Made by a program: the position numbers and the translations under genes. A model generated the notes under the pieces. The model was not told where the DNA came from and made no database searches. It saw only the letters and a list, made by a program, of their open reading frames with translations. Positions 12,204 through 59,942 of a stretch of 64,000 bases of DNA are shown here, piece after piece. Numbering within the stretch: the first letter of the stretch is position 1; each line of letters begins with the position of its first letter. The DNA is from Novosphingobium sp. RL4 (GTDB taxonomy: Bacteria > Pseudomonadota > Alphaproteobacteria > Sphingomonadales > Sphingomonadaceae): positions 3,394,501 to 3,458,500 of the forward strand of contig NZ_CP141944.1 in NCBI RefSeq assembly GCF_035658495.1, given 5' to 3'.

Positions 12204-12235
12204 ATTATAGGATAATCGGCTAGGCAACTCTTGCC
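12204..12235 (-). promoter_or_regulatory. Candidate fliF promoter with inverted repeat
   Basis: Minus strand: GTTGCC (12228-12223), 10 nt, then TCCTATAAT (12212-12204). The upstream element is half of a perfect inverted repeat GGCAA-CTC-TTGCC at 12223-12235. Distance to the fliF start is about 50 nt. Confidence 0.6.
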
Positions 12236-12250
12236 GGTAACAGGAAAAGT

Positions 12251-14262: not shown

Positions 14263-16980
14263 ATGGAGACACAATTGGCGATAAATTTAAACAATGGGTT
14301 GATAGGCCTGTCGGTTCTCGGCGGATCGAGCGCCTATTCCGCCCTGTCGTCGTCCCTCGCCTCCATGGACAGTGCGGCGGTTATGGCTGCGAAAAAGAAC
14401 TTCACGCTGGAGGTGCCCGATACCACGCCTCCCTGGCAGGAGGACGCGGACACCAGTTCCGTCAGTTCGCAAATCCTCGCGATCAAGAAGATGCTGTCGA
14501 TCGTGGACACCACCAAGGACAGCTCGCTGGAGGACCTGCCGGACGTCCAGACCGCCTTCACCACCTACAAGGCACTCGACAAACTGCGCATCCTTGCCGA
14601 AAGCGCGGCCAAGACCACCACCTCCTCGACCGAGCGCGCCTCGCTCCAGAAGGCCTTCGCGAAAGGCCTGGCCGATCTCCAGACCTACCTGGGTTCGGCT
14701 GACACCGACCTTGTCACGCTCAACTTCGGCACGCCGTCCAGCAATGCGACCTCGGTGGCGATCAAGGCCGCCAATTCCAGCGGCGCGGTGATCGGCGAAG
14801 GGGTGTCCACCTCGCGCGATGCCGCCATCGCCGGGATGACCGGCAGCGAAGTGCTCGAAATCAAGCTGACCAAGGGCAGCGCCGCACAGACGGTCACGGT
14901 GGACCTGTCGCAGACGACGCAGCCGCCCACGCTCGATTCCGTGGCCGCCGCGATCAACGCCGCGATCGGCGCCAGCCAGGCGACAGATACCAGCGGCAAT
15001 CCGGTCGTCGATGCCGACGGCAATCCGGTCAGCAAGTGGAAGTCCAATTTCACGGTCGAGAAGAACGACGGCAAATGGGGCCTCGTCTTCAATCCGGCGG
15101 GAAGCGAAAAGGTCGCGATCGACCAGATCGGCGGCAGTGACGCGCTGATGGTCGCCAGCGGCGAAACCGCATCCTCCGCGGTGACCGCCGCGCGGGTATA
15201 CCGCATCGACGACCTCGACGCGTCGCTGTCCTGGCAGCGCCTCAGCAAGATCAACGCCGTGGACGGCGCCGCCACCGCAACCGCAGTGGCTTCCGCCTCG
15301 GCCGACGATTACGAGGACAAGGACTACACCGTCTCCTCGGCGACCCAGGCCAAGGCCATCGCCACTGACGCCGAAGGCTTCAGCTATGTCGTCGGCACGA
15401 CCGCCGGCGACGTGGGCACGCATCTCACTGACGGTTCCGACGACCTGTTCCTCACCAAGGTCGACAGCGAGGGCAACGTCGTCTGGCAGCGCAGCCTCGG
15501 CGCCGCCGGCAGCGCGCAGGGCGCGGCGGTGACGATTGCAGCCAATGGCGATATCGTCGTGGCCGGCACCGTCAGCGGCGCCTTCAACGGCGGCGACGAC
15601 AGCCAGACCGACATGCTCGTCGCGCGATACAACGTGAAGGGCGAGGAACTCTCGGCCACAGTCATCCGCCAGGTCGGCAATGAAACGGCCAGCGCGGTCA
15701 CCGTAGGCGACGACGGCAGCATCTATGTCGCGGGCAAGGCCTCCACCGGCGGCGGCGATGCCTTCATCGCCAAGCTGGACGCCACCGGCAAGTTCGTGGA
15801 ACGTCGCACGATCGACAGCGGCGGCGCCGATTCCGTCACATCGCTGGCCATCGACGAATCCGGCAACCTGCTGGCCCTGACCAGCGAAAACGGCGTGGCC
15901 ACGATCCGGCGGATCGATTCCTCGTCCCTGTCCTCGGACCTTGGCTCGATCTCGCTCGGCAATGTCACCGCCCGCGCCATCGCGGTCTCGGACACCGGCG
16001 AAATCGCGGTCGTCGGCACCACCGCCAACGCGGTCAACGGCGCGCAGGTCAACAGTATCAACGGCGGTCAGGACGCCTTCGTCACGCGCATCGACGCGGC
16101 GATGTCCTCTGCCACCACGACCTATATCGGCACCTCGGCCACCGATCAGGCCGACAGCGTCACGTACCTGAACGGCACGCTCTACGTCGGCGGCCGCACG
16201 GCCGGCGACCTGTCAGGCGCGAAGACCGGTTCCGTCGACGGCTTCGTCGCCCGCATCGACGCTACGACCGGAGAGATCGAAAAGATCTCGCAATGGGGCA
16301 TGCGCACCTCGACCACCGAGCCGGTGAAGATCTCGGCCGTTTCGGGCGGCTCCACCGTGCTGGGCGCGCTCGGCCTCAGCCGGGGGACGCTCAACCAGCA
16401 GGAATCGACCACCCTCACCTCGCAGACCAGCCTTCGCGCCGGGGACCAGTTCACCCTGCGCGTGGACGGCGGCGCAACGCGCACGATCACCATCGACAAG
16501 GACGAGACGATGGCGTCGCTGTCGCTGAAGATCCAGCGGATCACCGGCACCAAGGCGACCATCACCACACCCAAGATCGATGGCCAGACCACGCTCAAGA
16601 TCCAGGTCAAATCGGGCTACAAGATCGAACTCGGCGCCGGAGCCGAGGGCAAGGATGCCCTTTCCAAGCTCGGTATCGATCCCGTCCGCCTCGTGGCCTC
16701 CAAGGCGGCCGATCCCGACGCGCCCAAGGTCACCCCGGGCGGCACTTACAGCCTCGCGCTTTCGGACACCCTCAACCTGTCCGATGCCAAGACCGCCGCG
16801 GTCGCGCTCTCCAAGATCAAGTCCGCGCTCTCGATGACGCAGACCGCCTATCGCTCGCTCTACTGGGACTCCACGAAGGCCTCGCTGGTGGACGGCACCG
16901 TAACCGGGGGCGGTACCGCCTACCAGCAGAAGCAACTCGCCAATTACCAGGCCGCCCTGTCGCGCCTGACCGGCTCGTAA
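14263..16980 (+). CDS. FlaEY-like beta-propeller flagellar protein
   Basis: Large protein, 905 aa, upstream of flgB. Residues about 355-690 form SBBP-type repeats (DDLFLTKVDSEGNVVWQRSL, IYVAGKASTGGGDAFIAKLD, LYVGGRTAGDLSG), predicted to fold as a beta-propeller. Two segments (about 195-240 and 730-790; GDQFTLRVDGGATRTITIDK) resemble the hook-associated FlgK/FliD-type insert, suggesting export by the flagellar system. No Sec signal peptide is seen. By size, repeats and place beside flgB it resembles Caulobacter FlaEY, which affects flagellin assembly; that assignment is from memory of the family and is moderate. Divergent from fliG; 12 bp before flgB. Confidence 0.7.
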   Translation: METQLAINLNNGLIGLSVLGGSSAYSALSSSLASMDSAAVMAAKKNFTLEVPDTTPPWQEDADTSSVSSQILAIKKMLSIVDTTKDSSLEDLPDVQTAFTTYKALDKLRILAESAAKTTTSSTERASLQKAFAKGLADLQTYLGSADTDLVTLNFGTPSSNATSVAIKAANSSGAVIGEGVSTSRDAAIAGMTGSEVLEIKLTKGSAAQTVTVDLSQTTQPPTLDSVAAAINAAIGASQATDTSGNPVVDADGNPVSKWKSNFTVEKNDGKWGLVFNPAGSEKVAIDQIGGSDALMVASGETASSAVTAARVYRIDDLDASLSWQRLSKINAVDGAATATAVASASADDYEDKDYTVSSATQAKAIATDAEGFSYVVGTTAGDVGTHLTDGSDDLFLTKVDSEGNVVWQRSLGAAGSAQGAAVTIAANGDIVVAGTVSGAFNGGDDSQTDMLVARYNVKGEELSATVIRQVGNETASAVTVGDDGSIYVAGKASTGGGDAFIAKLDATGKFVERRTIDSGGADSVTSLAIDESGNLLALTSENGVATIRRIDSSSLSSDLGSISLGNVTARAIAVSDTGEIAVVGTTANAVNGAQVNSINGGQDAFVTRIDAAMSSATTTYIGTSATDQADSVTYLNGTLYVGGRTAGDLSGAKTGSVDGFVARIDATTGEIEKISQWGMRTSTTEPVKISAVSGGSTVLGALGLSRGTLNQQESTTLTSQTSLRAGDQFTLRVDGGATRTITIDKDETMASLSLKIQRITGTKATITTPKIDGQTTLKIQVKSGYKIELGAGAEGKDALSKLGIDPVRLVASKAADPDAPKVTPGGTYSLALSDTLNLSDAKTAAVALSKIKSALSMTQTAYRSLYWDSTKASLVDGTVTGGGTAYQQKQLANYQAALSRLTGS

Positions 16981-22587: not shown

Positions 22588-22645
22588 CACTGTCCTTATA
22601 GGAAGAAAGAGGCTGCGGGCGGCGGTGCGGGCAGGCATTTTCGCG

Positions 22646-25546: not shown

Positions 25547-25586
25547 CAAGTCTGCTCCTGCCCCGCCTCTGCGGGGGACAGCATCC

Positions 25587-25641
25587 TTATAGGCATTTTT
25601 TGCCTAGCGGCGGCATGATCCTATAAATTTAATTCCTATAA
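25587..25641. promoter_or_regulatory. Divergent promoter region flgC / fliN-like
   Basis: Minus strand: GCCTATAAGG box (25594-25587) about 40 nt before flgC. Plus strand: two boxes, TCCTATAAA (25619-25627) and TCCTATAA (25634-25641), before the gene at 25665. Between them lies the inverted repeat GGCA-TTTTT-TGCC at 25592-25604. Confidence 0.55.
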
Positions 25642-25664
25642 GCAGGCTTGAAAGGAGACGCGCC

Positions 25665-36552: not shown

Positions 36553-36561
36553 GTTATAGGA
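36553..36561 (-). promoter_or_regulatory. Candidate motA/che operon promoter box
   Basis: TCCTATAAC on the minus strand, 57 nt before the motA ATG. No GTTGCC-like element is seen upstream. Confidence 0.5.
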
Positions 36562-36635
36562 TGCTTGCGCCGGGGCCGGTGCCACACCACCGGATTTTCC
36601 CGAGGCCATGCGGCTCACCGCAAACCCGCGACCGT

Positions 36636-36657
36636 TTTGCCCCGCTTCGTCCTATAT
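36636..36657 (+). promoter_or_regulatory. Candidate flaF promoter
   Basis: TTTGCC (36636-36641), 8 nt, then TCCTATAT (36650-36657), 31 nt before the flaF ATG. The position supports the start at 36689. Confidence 0.45.
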
Positions 36658-36688
36658 GGAGAAGGCAGTCGTCCTCGCGGGAGCCAAC

Positions 36689-37227: not shown

Positions 37228-39936
37228 ATGCAGGAATTGAATCCTCCGCCACAGCGCATGGGCGGGTCGCTTCCTGTAAGGATGGTTCCGGCCGTTCCCG
37301 TCTTCGTCGCCGTGGCGCACCTTGTTTGCGTGATCGTCCTGTCCGGCTGGTATCTCGGGAAACCGGGCCTTGCCGGATTGGGCGGAAGCGACTTCCTGAT
37401 GCAGCCGCAGACGGCGGTTTCCTGCCTTGTCATCGGCATATCCGTTATTCTCGCCGGCCTGGGCAGGCGCGACGCCAGCCGCTGGGTTCTGGTGCTTCCC
37501 CTGCTTATAGGATCGGCGGCCCTCGTACAGGAATTGTCAGGGTACTCCTTCGGGACCGACCCCTTGCTCTTCCCGGAGAGCATCCGCCACCAGCTGCGCC
37601 CCTTCCCCGGCCGCCCCGGCATGCTGCCCGCCATCACGATCGTGCTGGTCTGCCTGGCCGCCATGGCAGTGGCCTCCCGCAGCGGCATGTTCCGCCGGAT
37701 GACCGTCACGTTCGCCTGCGTGGCGATCGCCATCGCCGCTATCGCCGGAAGCCTGGTCCCGCTGGGCATCAGCAACCTCGCGCCCGCCACCCGCCATGCG
37801 CTCATGTCGATCCCGACTGCTCTTGCCCTCAGCATGCTGGCCATCGGCATCATCGCGCTGCGGCGCCAGTACGCCTGGCCCCGCAACCCCGCCTGCGGGT
37901 TCGGTTCGGGCACGCTCCAGTGGTGCCTGATCCTGTGCGTCTCGGTGCCGGTAATTTCCGCGCTGCTCCGCTTCTTGGGGGAACGCTCGGGCCAGATCGG
38001 GCCGGAGCTTGCCCAGATCGTCCAGGTCGTGGCGCAAGTCACGCTGTCCTGCGCGCTGATCGCCTGGGCCTGGATGCGGATCGCGCGCGAAAGCGGAGCG
38101 CGCTGGGCCGTCAATCTCGCGCTGGACGAAGCCCCGATCGCGATCACCGATCCTGACGGCAAGATCCTGCGCTGGTCGCGCGGCTGCGAGCGTCTCTACG
38201 GCTGGTCGTCCGAACAGGCGCTCGGCCGTTTCGAACACGAGCTGACCGGCGCGCCCCCGCTTTCGCCCGGGGAAGAGGAGAGCCTGCTCGGCGGCCAGCG
38301 GCAGGAGTGCGAAATCAACGCCTTCCACGCGGACGGCACATCCCTGCGCATCCTGCTGGGGCGTCAGGCCGTGCAGCCCCGCTCGGACCTGCCGGCAATG
38401 GTGGTCCTGTCGATGACCGACATCACCGCCCGCCAGCAGGCCGAGGATGCCATGCTGGCCAGCGATGCCCGCCTTTCTCTGGCGGTGGACCTGCATGAGC
38501 TGGGCATCTTCGAATGGTCCAGCAAATCCGATTCCTTCGTCTTCCACGGCCATGCGGAGCGCCTGTTCGGAGTGGAGCCCGGCGCCTTCCAGGGCGGCAT
38601 GTCGGACTGGATCGGCCACCTCGCCACCACGTTCGACACGACATTCCTGCCGCCCGCCACGCCCGAGCACTGGCAACCGGGACGCCACGCCTTCCGCTTC
38701 CGCTCGATCCGGCCGGACATGCCCGACATCGTGGAGGGCACTGTCCACATCCACCGGGGCGAAGCGGCATGGGACGTTTCGATGATCGGCATCGTGATGG
38801 ATGCCAGCGAGCGAGAGCGGCATGCGGAAATGCTCCGCTCCCGCGAATCCGAGCTGCGCTCGATCCTGGAGACCGTGCCGGAAGCGATGATCACCATCGA
38901 CGGGAACGGGCAGATCCGCTCCTTCTCGGCCACGGCGGAAACACTTTTCGGCTATGCCGCGCATGAGGTGCTGGGCAAGGATGTGCGGATGCTGCTGCCG
39001 CAATATGTCCGTCCTTCGCCCGAACCGGCGCTGCGCAGCCTCACGCCCCCGACGCCGCCCCGGATCACCGCGGGGCTGGACCGCGAAGGCAACGAACTTC
39101 CGATCGAGATCGCGGTCGGCGCCGCGAACATCGGCAACGAGCGCATCGCCATCGCCTTCATCCGCAACCTGCGTGAGCAGCTGGCGACACAGGCGCGCCT
39201 GAACGAACTGCGCGAACAGTTCCTCCACGCCTCGCGGGTCAGTGCGATGGGCGAGATGGGGGCCGGCCTTGCGCATGAGCTCAACCAGCCGCTGACCGCG
39301 ACGTCTAACCTGCTGGGCGCCGTGGACCTCCTGATGGAGCGTGACGGCGATCCCCGGCAGCTTCGCTACATGCTCGACCTCGCACGGCAGGAGGTGCTGC
39401 GCGCCGGCGCGATCATCCGCCGCATGCGCGCCTTCGTCACGCGGGGAGAACTGGATATCCGCGCCGAACCGCTGGAGGACGTGATAGCCGAGACGCTCCA
39501 GCTCGCCCGGGCCCGTAGCCGTGCGCCGGGCGTTCGCCTGCACTACCTTCCTCTCGGCGCGGCACCTTGCATCCTTGCCGATCGCATCCAGATTCAGCAG
39601 GTTCTGGTCAACGTCATCAACAATGCCTTCGACGCCCTCGAAGGCCATAACAACGAGTCGCCCGAAATCACCATATCCACCCGCCAACTGCATGATGGCC
39701 ACATCATGGTCAGTGTAGCCGACAACGGCCCCGGAATGCCCGAGGCCATCATCAGCCGCCCCTTCGAAGCCTTTGCCTCCACCAAGGCCAACGGCATGGG
39801 ACTGGGGCTTTCGATCTGCCGACGTATCGTGGAAGCGCATGGCGGGCGCTTTTCGGTGCGCAATGTCGCGGGCGGCGGCGCGGCGGTCGACGTCACCCTG
39901 CCCACTTATTCAGAGCTGGAGCTGAAGACCGGATGA
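37228..39936 (+). CDS. FixL-like membrane PAS histidine kinase without heme ligand
   Basis: Sensor kinase, 902 aa. About six membrane helices at 20-285, then PAS-like regions at about 290-405, 415-535 and 545-655, HisKA with phospho-His near 683 (GAGLAHELNQPLTAT) and HATPase at 770-895 (VINNAFDALEG, DNGPGMP, GMGLGLSICRRIVEAHGG). The last PAS-HisKA part closely follows the FixL pattern (ILETVPEAMITIDGNG, AFIRNLREQ, SRVSAMGEMGAGLAHELNQP), but the loop that carries the heme-binding His in FixL reads LPQYVRPSPEP, without His. Heme oxygen sensing by this PAS is therefore unlikely. Overlaps the next gene by 4 bp. Confidence 0.9.
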   Translation: MQELNPPPQRMGGSLPVRMVPAVPVFVAVAHLVCVIVLSGWYLGKPGLAGLGGSDFLMQPQTAVSCLVIGISVILAGLGRRDASRWVLVLPLLIGSAALVQELSGYSFGTDPLLFPESIRHQLRPFPGRPGMLPAITIVLVCLAAMAVASRSGMFRRMTVTFACVAIAIAAIAGSLVPLGISNLAPATRHALMSIPTALALSMLAIGIIALRRQYAWPRNPACGFGSGTLQWCLILCVSVPVISALLRFLGERSGQIGPELAQIVQVVAQVTLSCALIAWAWMRIARESGARWAVNLALDEAPIAITDPDGKILRWSRGCERLYGWSSEQALGRFEHELTGAPPLSPGEEESLLGGQRQECEINAFHADGTSLRILLGRQAVQPRSDLPAMVVLSMTDITARQQAEDAMLASDARLSLAVDLHELGIFEWSSKSDSFVFHGHAERLFGVEPGAFQGGMSDWIGHLATTFDTTFLPPATPEHWQPGRHAFRFRSIRPDMPDIVEGTVHIHRGEAAWDVSMIGIVMDASERERHAEMLRSRESELRSILETVPEAMITIDGNGQIRSFSATAETLFGYAAHEVLGKDVRMLLPQYVRPSPEPALRSLTPPTPPRITAGLDREGNELPIEIAVGAANIGNERIAIAFIRNLREQLATQARLNELREQFLHASRVSAMGEMGAGLAHELNQPLTATSNLLGAVDLLMERDGDPRQLRYMLDLARQEVLRAGAIIRRMRAFVTRGELDIRAEPLEDVIAETLQLARARSRAPGVRLHYLPLGAAPCILADRIQIQQVLVNVINNAFDALEGHNNESPEITISTRQLHDGHIMVSVADNGPGMPEAIISRPFEAFASTKANGMGLGLSICRRIVEAHGGRFSVRNVAGGGAAVDVTLPTYSELELKTG

Positions 39937-40553
39937 CGTCGCGACGCATCTACATCGTCGACGACGATCTCGCCGTAAGGACCTCGCTCGAATACCTGCT
40001 GTCGATGATCGGCAACAGCCGGATCACCAGCTTCGATTCCGGCGACGCCTTTCTGGAGGCGGCGGCCACGCTCGAACCGGGGTGCCTGCTGCTGGACCTG
40101 CACATGCCGGGCACCACCGGCATCCAGGTCCTGAGCACCGTGGGCGGGCGCCCCACGCGCTTCGTGCCGATCGTGCTCACCGGGGAAGGCGACGTCTCGG
40201 TGGCGGTCCAGGCCATGAAGCTGGGTGCGGTCGACTTCATCGAGAAGCCCTGTGACCATCTCAAGTTGATGGGGGCGGTGGAATCGGCATTCTCCCAGCA
40301 GGCGGCCTCCACTGTGGAGGAGCGCCGCAAGGAAAAGGCGATCTCCCTGCTGGAGCAGCTTTCACCGCGCGAACTGGACGTGCTCAAGGGGTTGATCGAC
40401 GGTCAGTCGAACAAGGTCATCGCCCACGATCTCGACATCAGTCCGCGCACGGTGGAAATCTACCGCGCCAAGCTGATGGAAAAGCTCCAGGTGCGCAGCC
40501 TGTCCGAAGTGCTCCGTATCGCTTTCGCGGCCGGGCTCGTACCGATGGACTGA
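39933..40553 (+). CDS. FixJ-like response regulator
   Basis: Two-domain response regulator, 206 aa: receiver (IVDDDLAVRTSLEYLL, phosphorylation site in LLLDLHMPGTTG, Lys in FIEKPC) and LuxR/FixJ-type helix-turn-helix (LSPRELDVLKGLIDGQSNKV, ISPRTVEIYRAKLMEK). Partner of the kinase encoded just upstream (ATGA overlap). Target genes unknown; the porin encoded next door is one candidate. Confidence 0.93.
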   Translation: MTSRRIYIVDDDLAVRTSLEYLLSMIGNSRITSFDSGDAFLEAAATLEPGCLLLDLHMPGTTGIQVLSTVGGRPTRFVPIVLTGEGDVSVAVQAMKLGAVDFIEKPCDHLKLMGAVESAFSQQAASTVEERRKEKAISLLEQLSPRELDVLKGLIDGQSNKVIAHDLDISPRTVEIYRAKLMEKLQVRSLSEVLRIAFAAGLVPMD

Positions 40554-42319: not shown

Positions 42320-43198
42320 TCAGTGCGCGGAAGCCGGTGCCACCATGGACTGGCGGTATTCCGCCATCATCAGGAAGCGCGGATCAGCGCCGGCAAGGTC
42401 GCTCATGGTCTTGGCCGCGCGCTTGGCGATCTGGCGGACACGCTCCTTGGCAACGCCGGTCTCGTCCTCGATCATGTCCAGCGTGGCGATGTCGAACAGG
42501 CGCCCTTCCACGACCTTGCGGTTGTGCTCCAGACGTTCCTCGAGTTCGGCCAGTTCCACCGGATCGATCGCCGCCTTGCCCGTGCGCCAGACCGAACGCC
42601 GGGTGCCAGCTTCTGCCCGCACCGCCTTCTTCGGCTGGGCGCGGCGCTGGATGCGCTCGATGCCGATATTGCGCAGATGCTCGACGTAGCTTTCCGTCAG
42701 CGAGGCCATGGCCGAGCGCGCGAGATAGTCCGACGCACCGGCTTCGGTGCGGTTCAGCGCGTCCTCATCCTCGATCGAGGCGACGATCGACTGGCCTTCG
42801 CCGTCCTCGCCCACGCTGATCGCGTCGAGAGAAACCGTGGTCGCCTCCACCTTCCGAGCCGAAGGGCGCTGGTCGGTCATCAGGCGGAAGCGCAGGCTCT
42901 GGAGTTCGCCCCGGATCTGCCAGTTCACGAAAGTGGTGAATTGCGCCTTTTCCGGTTCATAGGCCTGGATCGCGCGGTGAACGGCGATCGCACAGACCTG
43001 TTCGGCATCGTCCCAGTGAGCGACGAGGCCGTACTGGCGGATGAAGTGGCGGATGCGCGGTGCGATCAGCTTGATGATCCGCCCGAAGGCGCGATCGACG
43101 ACGACCCGCTGGCGCGGTGACTGCGCCTCGCCCTCGGCCGGCATATTGTCCCGGACGGTCGCAACCGCGGCTTCCAGAGCAACAGTGATCTTCGACAT
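42320..43198 (-). CDS. Divergent sigma-70 family factor of the flagellar cluster
   Basis: RNA polymerase sigma factor, 292 aa. Region 2 at about residues 38-112 (AFGRIIKLIAPRIRHFIRQY, DDAEQVCAIAVHRAIQAYEP, FTTFVNWQIRGELQSLR). Region 4 helix-turn-helix at about 238-265 (IEDETGVAKERVRQIAKRAA). Between them lies a long, atypical segment (about 115-230). It has neither the RpoH box nor a clear FliA region 3. It closes the flbT-fliI-fliJ-transglycosylase series after a 169-bp gap. ATG 43198 follows GGGGG; an upstream in-frame start at 43237 is possible. A role in transcribing the flagellar genes is inferred from location and from the shared TCCTATAAT boxes. Confidence 0.85.
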   Translation of the reverse strand: MSKITVALEAAVATVRDNMPAEGEAQSPRQRVVVDRAFGRIIKLIAPRIRHFIRQYGLVAHWDDAEQVCAIAVHRAIQAYEPEKAQFTTFVNWQIRGELQSLRFRLMTDQRPSARKVEATTVSLDAISVGEDGEGQSIVASIEDEDALNRTEAGASDYLARSAMASLTESYVEHLRNIGIERIQRRAQPKKAVRAEAGTRRSVWRTGKAAIDPVELAELEERLEHNRKVVEGRLFDIATLDMIEDETGVAKERVRQIAKRAAKTMSDLAGADPRFLMMAEYRQSMVAPASAH

Positions 43199-43256
43199 GG
43201 TGAACCCCCGGTCAGTCGGGAAGCGCCGGGCGCCCATCGCCGCCGCTGCCCCTTCA

Positions 43257-43327
43257 ACGAGACCGTTGTCTCGTGAATTTCTGAACGAGAGGTTAATCCT
43301 ATATCAGTTTTCCTATATTTCCTATAT
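43257..43327. promoter_or_regulatory. Leader of the sigma-factor gene: hairpin and three repeats
   Basis: ACGAGAC-CGTT-GTCTCGT hairpin at 43257-43274, then three direct repeats TCCTATAT at 43297-43304, 43311-43318 and 43320-43327 (plus-strand reading). The repeats resemble the flagellar promoter box but point away from the sigma gene. Confidence 0.45.
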
Positions 43328-43367
43328 TTTCTGCCGCAACCGGAGCACGGCGCAGCCGGGAAAGGCG

Positions 43368-46624: not shown

Positions 46625-46653
46625 GCCGAAAGCCCCCGTGACATCTTTCTCCG

Positions 46654-46661
46654 TTATAGGA
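46654..46661 (-). promoter_or_regulatory. Candidate flbT operon promoter box
   Basis: TCCTATAA on the minus strand, 30 nt before the flbT ATG. Confidence 0.5.
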
Positions 46662-46715: not shown

Positions 46716-46741
46716 GTTGCCCCTCCGTTTCTTCCTACAAT
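46716..46741 (+). promoter_or_regulatory. Candidate flgE promoter
   Basis: GTTGCC (46716-46721), 11 nt, then TCCTACAAT (46733-46741), 62 nt before the flgE ATG. Confidence 0.55.
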
Positions 46742-50291: not shown

Positions 50292-51200
50292 ATGACCCGC
50301 GTTGCGACCATCCCCCTGCAGAGAACGCTTTCGGGCGCGATCCAGCGCTCGCAGGCGAGCCTTGCAAACAGCCAGCTCCAGCTCGCATCGACCAAGAAGG
50401 CCACCGACTACGCCGGCCTCGGCCTCGACGCGGTGCGCACGCTCTCGGCGCGCTCGATGCTGGCGCAGCAACAGTCCTACAAGAACATCTCCAGCCGCGT
50501 GACCACCACGCTGCAGATGTACGATGCCAACCTCAACCAGATCGACAGCTCGCTTTCCGACCTTCAGGAACAGCTGATGACGGCGATCGGCACCGGCGAT
50601 TCCCCCGGCATCCAGTCGATGATCGAAGGCGCCTTCAACGACGTGCGCACCGCGCTCAACGCCAAGGAGGCAGGCGTGCCCCTGTTCGCCGGGTCGCAGA
50701 CCTCGGACGAGCCCTTCGCGCCCAAGACGCTGAACGACACCATCGGCCTCGACGCGGCCGACGCCTTCACCAACGACCAGGTCCGCCAGTCCAGCCGCAT
50801 GGGTGACGGCGTGGACGTGGAATACGGCATCGTCGCCAGCGACGTAGGCACCGGCCTGATCCCCGCCTTCCGCACGCTCGCCGAAGCAGGGCCTTATGGC
50901 GACAAGCTCACCGATGCGCAGAAAGTGGCGATCCAGCAGGCGATCGACCAGCTCGACACCGGGCTTGTCAGCGTGCGCGCGGTGAATGCCGAGAACGGCC
51001 GCAAGCAGAACCAGGTGGAAACCCTCAACGACCGCGCCGTCGACCGCGCCAACCTCCTGACCGAAGTGATCGGCTCGGTGGAAGACGCCGACCTCGGCCA
51101 GGTGGCGATCGACATCACCCAGCGCCAGACGATCCTGGAAGCGAGCTACTCGGTCTTCGCGCAGCTCTCCAGCATGTCCCTGGCGAAATTCCTGACCTGA
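50292..51200 (+). CDS. flgL: FlgL, hook-filament junction protein
   Basis: Second junction protein, 302 aa, flagellin-like. N-terminal LQRTLSGAIQRSQASLANSQ, C-terminal DLGQVAIDITQRQTILEASY followed by SVFAQLSSMSLAKFL. AAGGA lies 7 nt before the ATG. The next step, filament capping by FliD, has no recognisable gene here. Confidence 0.95.
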   Translation: MTRVATIPLQRTLSGAIQRSQASLANSQLQLASTKKATDYAGLGLDAVRTLSARSMLAQQQSYKNISSRVTTTLQMYDANLNQIDSSLSDLQEQLMTAIGTGDSPGIQSMIEGAFNDVRTALNAKEAGVPLFAGSQTSDEPFAPKTLNDTIGLDAADAFTNDQVRQSSRMGDGVDVEYGIVASDVGTGLIPAFRTLAEAGPYGDKLTDAQKVAIQQAIDQLDTGLVSVRAVNAENGRKQNQVETLNDRAVDRANLLTEVIGSVEDADLGQVAIDITQRQTILEASYSVFAQLSSMSLAKFLT

Positions 51201-51308: not shown

Positions 51309-53129
51309 CTATCCCTTGGTCGCGCTTCCCGGCGCGCGTTCGAGCAGGTCGGCGAACTCGCCTGCCGGACTGGCCGAAGGCATGGCGGCCATGGCCCGCG
51401 CGAGGTTCGGCCCGGTTGCCTCCTCCGGGCGCCCTGTCAGCATCTCGAAGACCGGCGCGGCGGGCAGGCCCCGGAACGCCGCCGCATAGCGTGCATGAAG
51501 CCCGGCAAGCCCTTCCTCGCGGCCGAGCATGGCCAGCGAGATCGCATGACGCAGCACCACCGCCTGGCCCACTGTGTCCAGCGCCCGGCCGCTTGGCAGG
51601 GAGCCCGCCGAAGCCTCGGCATAACGGGCCCAGTCCCGCTGCTTCCAGAGGATCTCGGCACGCAGGGTATCGGCGGAAGGCACGTCCTGAAGCACCGCCA
51701 TGGCCTCGTCGATGCGGCCGATCTGGCTGAGCGCCGCAGCCTCCACGCGCTTGCGGGCGGCGATCATGGCATCCGGCAGCGAAGGATCCTCGGACTTGCG
51801 CAGGGTATCGAGCGCACGGTCGGGCCGTCCGGCAAGGATGAACAGCGTCGCCACGCGGGCCGAGAGCGGGCCGCGCGCCAGATCGCCGGCACGGACGAAG
51901 AGCTGGTAGGACAGCAGGTCCGCCGCGCGCTCGTAAAGCCCTGCCTGCTGGAGCCGCTCGGCCAGGTGGCTGGCCATGAGGTCGCCCTCGGCCCCGCCCG
52001 GCGCGATGTCGCGATAGTCCCAGTAAAGCCCGGCCGCCTTGTCGAGCGGGAGCTTGCGCGCAGGGTCCAGCGCGGTCGCCAGCTTGGCGCGCAGGCCGGG
52101 AAGGAAGTCCGCGCCCTGCTGCCCTGCATCATGATAGCGGAACAGGGCCGAACCCGCCGCCAGCGCCCCGGTAAGGTCTCCGCGCGCATCGTAGAGCTTG
52201 TAGGTGAGCCGCAGCGCCCGCTCCTCGATGGCATCGCCGCGCCAGGCGTAGCGGATCGCATCGAGCCGCTTGAGCGCCGCCTCGGGGCCGACGGTGTGGT
52301 GCGCCACTTCGGCTTCCACCTCGCTCAGCCGCGCATCCATGCGCTGCTCCATCGTGCCCGATTTCTCGACACGGGCGAAGCGCAGCCGCGCCTCGTCGGC
52401 ATGGCCCTGCGCCAGTTCGGCACGGCCACGGTAGAGGTTCGCCGCCGGATCGCGATCCGGCAGCGGGGCGAGCCACTGCATCGCCTTGGCCGGTGCCCCG
52501 CCCTCGACAGCGGCACGGGCGGCGGCAAGCACGAAAGCCTTGGGCCGGGGCGTGGTCAGCGCGCCCCGCGCGCAGTCGAGCTGCCCCAGCGCCTGATCGG
52601 CCAGCGCGCTCTGCGCCAGCGCCCTCAGGCGCCAGGCGCAGGCTTCGGGATTGGTGCCGAGCCCCGCCGCGCCGAGCGAGGCGAGCGCATCGGGATAACG
52701 GCCGAGCAGGGTCAGCGCCGCCCCTTGCGCCAGCCGGTAGGTATCGACCATCTCCAGGTCGGGATCGTCCTGCCGCATGACTTCCAGCACGCCGAACGCC
52801 TCTGCCCCGCGCTCCTGCCCGATCAGGCTTCGGGCATAGTTCCAGCGCGCCTGCTGCCGCTCGGGCTGCGGCGCGCGGGAGAGGCGCATCCACGCATCGT
52901 CTTGCGAAATCCTGCCCCAGGCGGCGGGACCGACGATGGCGGGCTGCTGCGCGAGGTCGGCGGCGAAGCCCGGCAGACGCGGCGGGCGCGGCAGTGCCGG
53001 CCGCGCGGGCTCGGGCACGCGCATGGGTGCGGCCGTGGCGCTGGTAACGGGCGCGTTCACGGTGGGCGCGGCCACGAGCGCCGCGCCCGGGATGAGCGCG
53101 GCAGACGCCAGCAGGCGAGTAAGAATCAC
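51309..53129 (-). CDS. Secreted TPR-rich protein of unknown function
   Basis: 606 aa. A signal-like N-terminus (LLASAALIPGAALVAAP) is followed by a Pro-rich segment and then helical TPR-like repeats through most of the protein (GAALTLLGRYPDALASLGAA, AMQWLAPLPDRDPAANLYRG, RVATLFILAGRPDRALDTLR). The start is probably GTG at 53129, overlapping the stop of the small membrane gene as GTGA with GGAG 7-8 nt upstream. Its place between flgL and the fliLM genes suggests a periplasmic scaffold for the motor, but no characterised family is recognised. Confidence 0.7.
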   Translation of the reverse strand: MILTRLLASAALIPGAALVAAPTVNAPVTSATAAPMRVPEPARPALPRPPRLPGFAADLAQQPAIVGPAAWGRISQDDAWMRLSRAPQPERQQARWNYARSLIGQERGAEAFGVLEVMRQDDPDLEMVDTYRLAQGAALTLLGRYPDALASLGAAGLGTNPEACAWRLRALAQSALADQALGQLDCARGALTTPRPKAFVLAAARAAVEGGAPAKAMQWLAPLPDRDPAANLYRGRAELAQGHADEARLRFARVEKSGTMEQRMDARLSEVEAEVAHHTVGPEAALKRLDAIRYAWRGDAIEERALRLTYKLYDARGDLTGALAAGSALFRYHDAGQQGADFLPGLRAKLATALDPARKLPLDKAAGLYWDYRDIAPGGAEGDLMASHLAERLQQAGLYERAADLLSYQLFVRAGDLARGPLSARVATLFILAGRPDRALDTLRKSEDPSLPDAMIAARKRVEAAALSQIGRIDEAMAVLQDVPSADTLRAEILWKQRDWARYAEASAGSLPSGRALDTVGQAVVLRHAISLAMLGREEGLAGLHARYAAAFRGLPAAPVFEMLTGRPEEATGPNLARAMAAMPSASPAGEFADLLERAPGSATKG

Positions 53130-53401
53130 ATCAAGGCTCCGGGAAACATGACCGACATCGTGAACAGGGCCCCGCCCAGCAGGCAGCCGAGCAGGAACAG
53201 CAGGGCCGCGCCGGCCGCCCAGAGCAGCCCGCCGCCCTCGCGCGGCCTGGCCGCCGTGCCGCTGTCTACTCCGGCAAGCTGGACATTGTCCGTCCGACGG
53301 CGCGCAGGCGAGGCGCCCGGCGCGTTCGCAGCCGCAGGATTGCGCTCCGGAACGCCGGAAGAGAACACCCTGACCTTGGCCGGACGCTGATCGCTGCTCA
53401 T
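53126..53401 (-). CDS. Small single-helix membrane protein
   Basis: 91 aa, not recognised. A hydrophilic N-terminal half (MSSDQRPAKVRVFSSGVPER) precedes a membrane segment at about 58-88 (LLWAAGAALLFLLGCLLGGA). It is coupled to the TPR gene by a 4-bp overlap and probably works with it. A CTATAAT box lies 29 nt upstream. Confidence 0.65.
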   Translation of the reverse strand: MSSDQRPAKVRVFSSGVPERNPAAANAPGASPARRRTDNVQLAGVDSGTAARPREGGGLLWAAGAALLFLLGCLLGGALFTMSVMFPGALM

Positions 53402-53425
53402 CTGGACCTGACTCCTGAGGTTTCA

Positions 53426-53440
53426 TCCTATTATAGAAGG
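53426..53440. promoter_or_regulatory. Shared divergent promoter box
   Basis: TCCTATTATAGAAGG. The core CTATTATAG reads TATTAT on the plus strand and TATAAT on the minus strand, so it can serve as -10 for both the gene at 53491 (+) and the pair starting at 53401 (-). Confidence 0.45.
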
Positions 53441-53490
53441 ACAAACCGCAAGGCGGTCCGCGCGCGCCGGACCCGATCTGGAGTTGCCGA

Positions 53491-56884: not shown

Positions 56885-56915
56885 ATTATAGGAAAGCCGC
56901 GCGGCAAAATCTGCC
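56885..56915. promoter_or_regulatory. Divergent fliL / flgF promoter with inverted repeat
   Basis: Minus strand: TTTGCC (56908-56903), 9 nt, TCCTATAAT (56893-56885) for fliL. Its upstream element belongs to the inverted repeat GGCA-AAATC-TGCC (56903-56915). The core CTATTATAG gives a plus-strand TATTAT box about 65 nt before flgF. Confidence 0.55.
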
Positions 56916-59919: not shown

Positions 59920-59942
59920 GTTGTTTTCGAACTTCCTAGAAT
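59920..59942 (+). promoter_or_regulatory. Candidate flagellin promoter
   Basis: GTTGTT (59920-59925), 8 nt, then TCCTAGAAT (59934-59942), about 97 nt before the flagellin ATG. It is the most diverged member of the box family in the window. Confidence 0.4.

Follow-up and report, generated by a model that had tools for sequence, protein, structure and literature searches.

The flagellar genes of the 64-kb stretch of Novosphingobium sp. RL4 analysed here (the window, taken as a whole) are preceded repeatedly by one short sequence, the box TCCTATAA. This raises the question of which form of RNA polymerase reads these genes and which protein assists it. Enhancer-binding proteins such as FlbD are usually defined by ATP-driven work on sigma-54. 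The answer that we favour, with modest confidence, is that the boxes belong to sigma-70-type flagellar promoters without a -35 element, served by an operator-bound FlbD that is unable to drive sigma-54.

A Pfam scan of the window proteins identified a flagellar cluster that includes flaF, flbT and flbD; flgL, fliK and fliH were named from position only. An Rfam scan of the 64-kb window gave no family at threshold. The best segments of the window FliF are 90–100% identical to FliF of five Novosphingobium records. The host genome comprises 5.45 Mb in two contigs and carries a second flagellar system with its own FliF on contig 1 (approximately 652–669 and 815–834 kb). This second region also encodes RpoN and a FliA-like sigma factor (172 bits, below the curated 189.6); its remaining gene names were assigned from sequence starts. 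For comparison, cluster DNA was sampled from ten relatives, from G045 and from 23 of the 26 family genomes with a window-type FliF (among 397), many of these stretches covering part of the cluster only. The clusters of the G099, G103, G427, L014 and L021 genomes lie outside this sample. Twenty-nine genomes are counted as box genomes, with G239 and G280 excluded (the tree proteins of G280 are identical to those of G109). A 905-aa gene divergent from fliG (14263–16980, + strand) has no Pfam match and is present in the compared cluster stretches except those of G045, G152 and G155.

The window contains 11 exact copies of the pattern TCCTAYAA, whereas 0.24 are expected from shuffling. Of TCCTATAA there are 21 exact copies in the genome, nine of them inside the window (binomial P ~1e-12; this test is post hoc, because the motif was first noticed in the same window), and 8 of the 9 are located 16–65 nt before flagellar genes. 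As the initial annotation had listed, exact boxes stand before fliF, fliG, the fliN-like gene (twice), motA, flbT, flgE and fliL, and its sites at flgC, the flagellin gene and flaF carry the variants GCCTATAAG, TCCTAGAAT and TCCTATATG, respectively. A box before flgI was missing from that list. Only 7 nt separate the end of this box from the ATG, so there is no space for another -10 element downstream. Two further matches, at 37505 (antisense within a kinase gene) and at 50475 (within the gene that follows flgK), are probably fortuitous. For the coordinates of all features see Table 1.

Table 1. Promoter boxes, upstream elements and the FlbD gene in the window (positions within the 64-kb stretch).
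Feature	Sequence	Position	Strand	Remark
fliF box	TCCTATAAT	12204..12212	-	58 nt before start codon; relaxed box in 27/29
fliG box	TCCTATAAA	14232..14240	-	exact match; relaxed box in 26/29
flgI box	TCCTATAAG	22595..22603	-	16 nt before ATG; flgI from Pfam
flgC box	GCCTATAAG	25586..25594	-	variant; overlaps palindrome shared with fliN-like gene
fliN-like gene, first box	TCCTATAAA	25619..25627	+	exact match
fliN-like gene, second box	TCCTATAAG	25634..25642	+	exact match
motA box	TCCTATAAC	36553..36561	-	exact match
flaF box	TCCTATATG	36650..36658	+	weaker variant
flbT box	TCCTATAAC	46653..46661	-	exact match
flgE box	TCCTACAAT	46733..46741	+	exact match
fliL box	TCCTATAAT	56885..56893	-	exact match
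flagellin box	TCCTAGAAT	59934..59942	+	weak variant
fliF palindrome	GGCAAGAGTTGCC	12223..12235	-	centre -18; right half GTTGCC; candidate FlbD operator
fliF A/T core		12246..12250	-	-38..-34 of box
flgC/fliN-like palindrome	GGCATTTTTTGCC	25592..25604	.	between the divergent genes; near -36 for fliN-like, -4 for flgC
motA A/T core		36595..36599	-	-38..-34 of motA box
fliL palindrome	GGCAGATTTTGCC	56903..56915	-	centre -16; right half TTTGCC
short FlbD, 148 aa		9724..10170	-	N-terminus related to full-length FlbD; Fis-type HTH; no AAA+ domain; candidate regulator

In the relatives the box was found at up to ten operons, namely at fliF, fliG, flgI, flgC, the fliN-like gene, motA, flbT, flgE and fliL and, more weakly, at the flagellin gene. 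The shuffled background of the relaxed box is 1.8% for the fliF and fliG counts given in Table 1. At fliF, the relaxed box occurs in 0 of the 3 genomes whose FlbD retains the GAFTGA motif and at 0 of 27 order-level loci, and strict TCCTAYAAT occurs in 22 of the 29 box genomes and at none of the 27 order-level loci. The order-level fliF counts leave out L057 (the same genome as G045) and L059 (contig edge), and the 27 loci include mutually close relatives. The first box search reached 160 nt; the fliF box of G244 was found only with the relaxed-box search. Upstream of flaF the relatives show a box-like sequence at a similar distance with 0–2 mismatches to TCCTANAA. The flagellin gene is preceded by TCCTAGAAT, TCCTAAAAT or TCCTAGAAG in the window genome, G100, G101, G105, G106 and G110, and no flagellin box was found near the corresponding place in G107 and G109. 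No clear box precedes flgI in G106, G108, G343 and several others. Genomes with a full-length FlbD often have CTCTATAAT or TTCTATAAT as the box; G324 and G188 show degraded boxes only. Rows for a sequence logo were upstream regions with at most two mismatches to the box and at most 125 nt from the start, and the conservation of the box in these rows is inflated because they were selected by the box itself. A shared flagellar promoter box near start codons, enriched at motility genes, is supported.

The initial annotation had combined the box with a GTTGCC element into a two-part motif and had, in effect, read this element as the -35 region of the promoter. Its spacing is present in the window at fliF, fliG, fliL and flgE, and TTTGCC lies 8 nt before the flaF box. 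In the relatives the box part of the motif recurs, but its partner is little conserved beyond fliF and fliL: KTTGCS lies 8–11 nt above the box in 10/27 upstream regions of fliF, 10/17 of fliL, 5/29 of fliG and 2/10 of flgE, and in 0/89 for flgI, flgC, fliN2, motA, flbT and fliC (flaF is outside this count). GTTGCC was rejected as a -35 element on these grounds. At fliF and fliL it belongs to the palindrome GGCAANNNTTGCC, of which it makes up one half; what is conserved upstream is instead an A/T core 34–38 nt above the box.

This A/T core is located at -38 to -34 relative to the box. In 51 rows from seven representative genomes the A/T content reaches 96% at -35, and the pooled letters at the core read GGCAAAAWTTTYC. 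Ten window promoters have A or T at 44 of 50 core positions (permutation p 0.0002), and among 172 rows from the 29 genomes 149 show at least 4/5 A/T in the core slot, compared to 21% of places in window upstream regions. The core is weaker at fliG (19/29), fliC (15/22) and flgI (8/11). In the same 172 rows palindromes of at least 8/10 are found mainly at three places above the box, -37 to -31, -21 to -15 and -6 to -3; at fliF and fliL the palindrome at the middle place contains GTTGCC as its right half. The fliF palindrome scores at least 9/10 in 27 of the 29 box genomes (1.1% in shuffled sequence). At the -35 place, palindromes of at least 9/10 occur in 25 of the 172 rows against a background of 0.3%. 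They belong to fliN2 (14), fliF (8), flbT (2) and flgE (1), which puts 22 of the 25 at two promoters. In relatives the A/T core of fliF and fliN2 takes the form of a clear palindrome, with its centre about 35 nt above the box. Eight relatives, all with a full-length FlbD, have palindromes of at least 9/10 centred at the fliF A/T core, and the core at fliF is probably a decayed second palindrome.

Since fliF and fliN2 account for nearly all intact palindromes at the -35 place, the A/T core elsewhere could be an UP element bound by the alpha subunit of RNA polymerase, with the action of FlbD confined to fliF, fliL and flgC/fliN2, where palindromes are intact. We take this possibility seriously while leaning against it; it can be combined with a sigma-70 reading of the box. 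Several window promoters indeed keep the A/T core only, with weak palindrome arms (operator scores at the -35 place are 5/10 for motA and fliL, 4/10 for flgC and 6/10 for fliG and fliC). However, the pooled letters at the core are those of GGCAAAAWTTTYC, and palindromes of at least 9/10 stand at the same place before flbT in G106 and G109 and before flgE in G109.

The fixed distance between box and A/T core also bears on the nature of the box itself, which, rather than a -10 element, might be an operator that serves some other regulator, such as the LuxR-type response regulator encoded at 39933–40553. Doubled boxes (25619/25634) would suit such an operator, as would a tandem array of three TCCTATA copies at 43297–43328 (+ strand), which lies upstream of, and inverted to, a 305-aa gene (42320–43237, - strand). 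Some boxes extend into imperfect palindromes, such as TCCTATTATAGAAGGA at 53426–53441. This sequence is located at the start of a 711-aa gene (51309–53444, - strand; fliK by position) and also precedes a divergent 143-aa gene (53491, + strand). Nevertheless, an operator would account poorly for the fixed spacing to the core and for the 7-nt gap at flgI, and the logo shows no other conserved -10 element. We therefore consider this explanation quite improbable.

The candidate regulator encoded in the window is a short FlbD, assigned to the family by its fliN-flbD-flhA neighbourhood and its Fis-type HTH. Its N-terminus aligns with the N-terminus of full-length FlbD. A Pfam receiver match, weak and below the curated cut-off, was obtained for two of four short FlbDs and not for the window protein. 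The Pfam AAA+ domain is absent in 4/4 short FlbDs scanned and present in 9/9 full-length ones, and in none of 19 short FlbDs is a Walker A, GAFTGA-like or ESELFG motif found in the reading frame. All ten full-length FlbDs of box genomes are without GAFTGA, having GAFPGA, GDFPGA, GAFDGA or GAFAAA at this position or having lost the loop, and the acid of the Walker B motif is changed from D to R in 7/7 that were aligned. Every one of the 29 box genomes therefore has an FlbD either without GAFTGA (10) or without the AAA+ domain (19). In G045, G152 and G155, FlbD keeps both GAFTGA and the Walker B sequence LLLDE, and neither fliF nor fliG has a box. As fliG directly follows fliF in these three genomes, no fliG box is expected there and fliF is the informative gene. 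G142 gave no FlbD match in the 40 kb fetched, and neither its fliF nor its fliG is preceded by a box.

In a tree built from FliF, FliG and FlhA by a quick method (35 rows), the AAA+ domain is lost once, with a support of 99, inside the box clade; a separate loss in G108 was rejected on this basis. FliX is present in two of the three GAFTGA genomes, in 8 of 10 with a degenerate full-length FlbD and in 2 of 18 tested with a short FlbD. RpoN was found in 14/14 genomes tested, and the cause is therefore not a loss of sigma-54 itself. The box, the loss of GAFTGA and the loss of a CtrA-type site at fliF share one branch of the tree. Any link between them counts as one event, and the correlation of the box with FlbD decay likewise counts once.

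The CtrA-type site was identified by a pair rule: a palindrome of at least 8/10 together with TTAAC-N6-TTTAC, with at most two mismatches, starting 10–30 nt after the start of the palindrome. For comparison, the CtrA consensus is given as TTAA-N7-TTAA (PMC4287350, in excerpt). Such pairs occur at fliF in 3/3 GAFTGA genomes and at 26 of the 27 order-level loci, side by side as in the FlbD/ftr and CtrA arrangement of Caulobacter, and in 0/29 box genomes; the rate in shuffled sequence is 0–0.1%. If three mismatches are allowed, 2 of the 29 box genomes also show a pair. For fliF of the box clade, a CtrA-type site was rejected on the basis of the count at two mismatches. Judged by its sequence, the site lost there is a candidate CtrA site.

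The gene order also resembles Caulobacter: flbD lies between fliN and flhA, flaF and flbT are in the cluster, and FliX is found in many relatives. Caulobacter FlbD, which binds at ftr sites, is an activator of middle and late genes and a repressor of fliF (PMC3930126, in excerpt), and it retains GAFTGA (PMC10274813, in excerpt). In contrast, FlbD of the box clade is without GAFTGA or without the AAA+ domain, fliF is without the CtrA-type site, and the promoters have TCCTATAAN.

We then asked which sigma factor would fit the box. The -10 consensus of FliA (sigma-28) is GCCGATAA. The initial annotation had compared the layout to FliA-type promoters, and both sequences are indeed eight-letter -10 elements that have CC and ATAA in the same places and agree at 6 of 8 letters. 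A FliA-grade gene is present in the host and in 23 of the 28 other box genomes. A FliA promoter in which TCCTATAA is a variant form of GCCGATAA and the -35 is GTTGCC-like is nonetheless highly improbable. No FliA-grade sigma was found in 5 of the 29 box genomes: G195 (one contig, 3.53 Mb), G254, G215, G188 (degraded boxes) and G108 (a Sphingomonas parva draft, completeness unstated). The FliA-like gene of the host, with its score below the curated cut-off, sits in the other flagellar region, and TCCTATAA is absent from the 108 kb read there. GTTGCC is not conserved, and neither the rows nor the logo contain any conserved element about 11 nt above the -10, where the -35 of FliA would be expected. 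The box also departs from GCCGATAA, its first letter being T in 42/51 and its fourth letter T in 50/51 of the box-selected rows. A search for the FliA consensus in the second flagellar region gave no result.

For sigma-54, the -24/-12 consensus is TGGCAC-N5-TTGC. Of 29 cluster stretches, five contain a relaxed site, in each case with TGGCG. Exceptions are a site with a single mismatch 37 nt before fliF of G254, and sites with two mismatches 234–236 nt before motB in the window genome, G100, G101 and G105. An FlbD with GAFTGA and an AAA+ domain, as expected of a sigma-54 activator, is present in 0/29 box genomes. Sigma-54 sites as promoters of this cluster were rejected; such sites had also been expected at late genes of box genomes with a full-length FlbD, which was not borne out. 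No strict sigma-54 site was detected in the stretches fetched from the GAFTGA genomes, so that a switch of late genes from sigma-54 to sigma-70 is at most a conjecture. Caulobacter NtrC mutants without GAFTGA still raise sigma-54 flagellar transcripts (PMC12421884, in excerpt), and loss of this motif may therefore not fully exclude sigma-54 effects. The argument from the protein is thus a strong one but falls short of proof; it carries most weight for the FlbDs that have no AAA+ domain left at all.

Activator-dependent promoters may be without a -35 element. The initial annotation had regarded the spacing between GTTGCC and box as too short for a sigma-70 promoter; this argument is not supported, as TATAAT within the box is itself a sigma-70 -10, and the promoter may simply be without a -35. 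A TATAAN -10 is present in the box-selected rows. A -35 TTG with a spacer of about 17 nt is not, the 51-row logo showing no clear signal at -20 to -15 of the box. More than 80% of the sigma-70 promoters of N. aromaticivorans are without -7T (PMC8407463, in excerpt), and the free ninth base of the box therefore fits sigma-70 in Novosphingobium. The box thus shares TATAA and a variable -7 base with alphaproteobacterial sigma-70 promoters, but differs from them in the TCC before TATAA, in the missing -35 TTG and in its bias to one flagellar cluster. Against this assignment, sigma-70 should not need the CC before TATAA to be as strongly conserved as it is. Our claim is that the box promoter works like a sigma-70 promoter; identity with one is not proven.

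RpoH recognizes a -10 of the type CYTATNT. The strong conservation of TCC before TATAA might point to RpoH or to an uncharacterised alternative sigma factor as the reader of TCCTATAA, the upstream palindrome then being an activator site, and smaller sigma matches in RpoH-sized frames of about 300–390 aa were found in 25/25 genomes examined. We consider this unlikely, as the logo contains no conserved -35 of any kind, a Pfam scan of 52 window proteins found no sigma gene, and sigma-70 already accounts for TATAA with a free last base. Two sigma genes of the host, L026 (contig 1:2084200) and L027 (contig 2:591654), gave equal scores of 107.2 bits; with frames of 674 and 710 codons they are RpoD-type by size, one per contig.

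Based on these comparisons we propose the following mechanism for the sigma-70-type reading. TCCTATAA(N) would form the -10 region, TATAAN preceded by the conserved TCC and without a -35, and its reader would probably be the housekeeping holoenzyme with sigma-70 (RpoD). The -35 would be replaced by operators of the type GGCAA-N3-TTGCC, in many cases reduced to the A/T core, about 35 nt above the box, with their centre at roughly -50 from the predicted start; fliF, fliL and flgC appear to have an additional copy nearer to the box. We take GGCAA-N3-TTGCC to resemble the Caulobacter ftr site. The most likely binder is the Fis-type HTH of FlbD, as suggested by position, conservation and this likeness. 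FlbD of the box clade lost GAFTGA and the Walker B acid and later the whole AAA+ domain, and without them should be a plain DNA-bound regulator. It would probably act as an activator from the -35 site and possibly as a repressor where a palindrome abuts the box, as at flgC. The CtrA-type site that relatives have beside the fliF palindrome is absent from the box clade.

More tentatively, and with slightly less than even confidence, we suppose that the regulon moved from control by CtrA and FlbD/sigma-54 to sigma-70-type promoters through the gutting of FlbD. Its HTH and operators would have been retained above a new, clade-specific -10 box, and FliX lost in most lineages. On this reading, the gene network of one flagellum would have switched to another form of RNA polymerase. 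Proteins of the NtrC family without the sigma-54 loop (Rhodobacter capsulatus NtrC, Caulobacter NtrC, VspR) have been reported at sigma-70 promoters (PMC10274813 and PMC12421884, both in excerpt). Caulobacter NtrC, however, keeps its AAA+ domain, and ATP has a role (PMC10274813, in excerpt), whereas within the box clade the deletion of this domain is clade-wide, and FlbD probably targets a flagellar regulon that has a -10-like box of its own. The combination of a clade-wide motor deletion with a regulon-wide promoter of its own would be new; no earlier description was found in the open-licence literature, most subscription papers being beyond that search. Living genomes seem to retain successive stages in the loss of the sigma-54 function of FlbD, together with the likely target promoters, so that the change of a regulon from one polymerase form to another becomes testable. 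The default annotation of sphingomonad FlbD as a sigma-54 activator calls for caution. A paper on Sphingomonas sp. WG treats FlbD in this way (PMC8921679, in excerpt), and the WG protein itself is outside our comparison.

Outside the window, TCCTATAA is rare in the host genome, as judged by 87 genome-wide occurrences of the reversed pattern versus 21 of the forward one. The initial annotation had held that equal frequency of the motif upstream of non-motility genes would count against it, and the 12 outside copies allow a partial check. Two precede chemoreceptor genes, in line with a motility box: a protoglobin chemoreceptor (L049, contig 2:151684, - strand; 5/5 A/T at -38 to -34 of the box) and a Cache chemoreceptor (L050, contig 2:262320, - strand; 3/5). 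At nine others no motility gene was recognised; the Pfam scan of one, L038, gave no match, and another of the nine, L039, has 4/5 A/T in the core slot. The remaining copy is metabolic, located 47 nt before the start of a pyruvate dehydrogenase E1 gene (L036, contig 1:2326127, - strand; 4/5). At this site GGCAAATTTCC lies approximately 35 nt upstream of the box, which reproduces the layout of the flagellar promoters.
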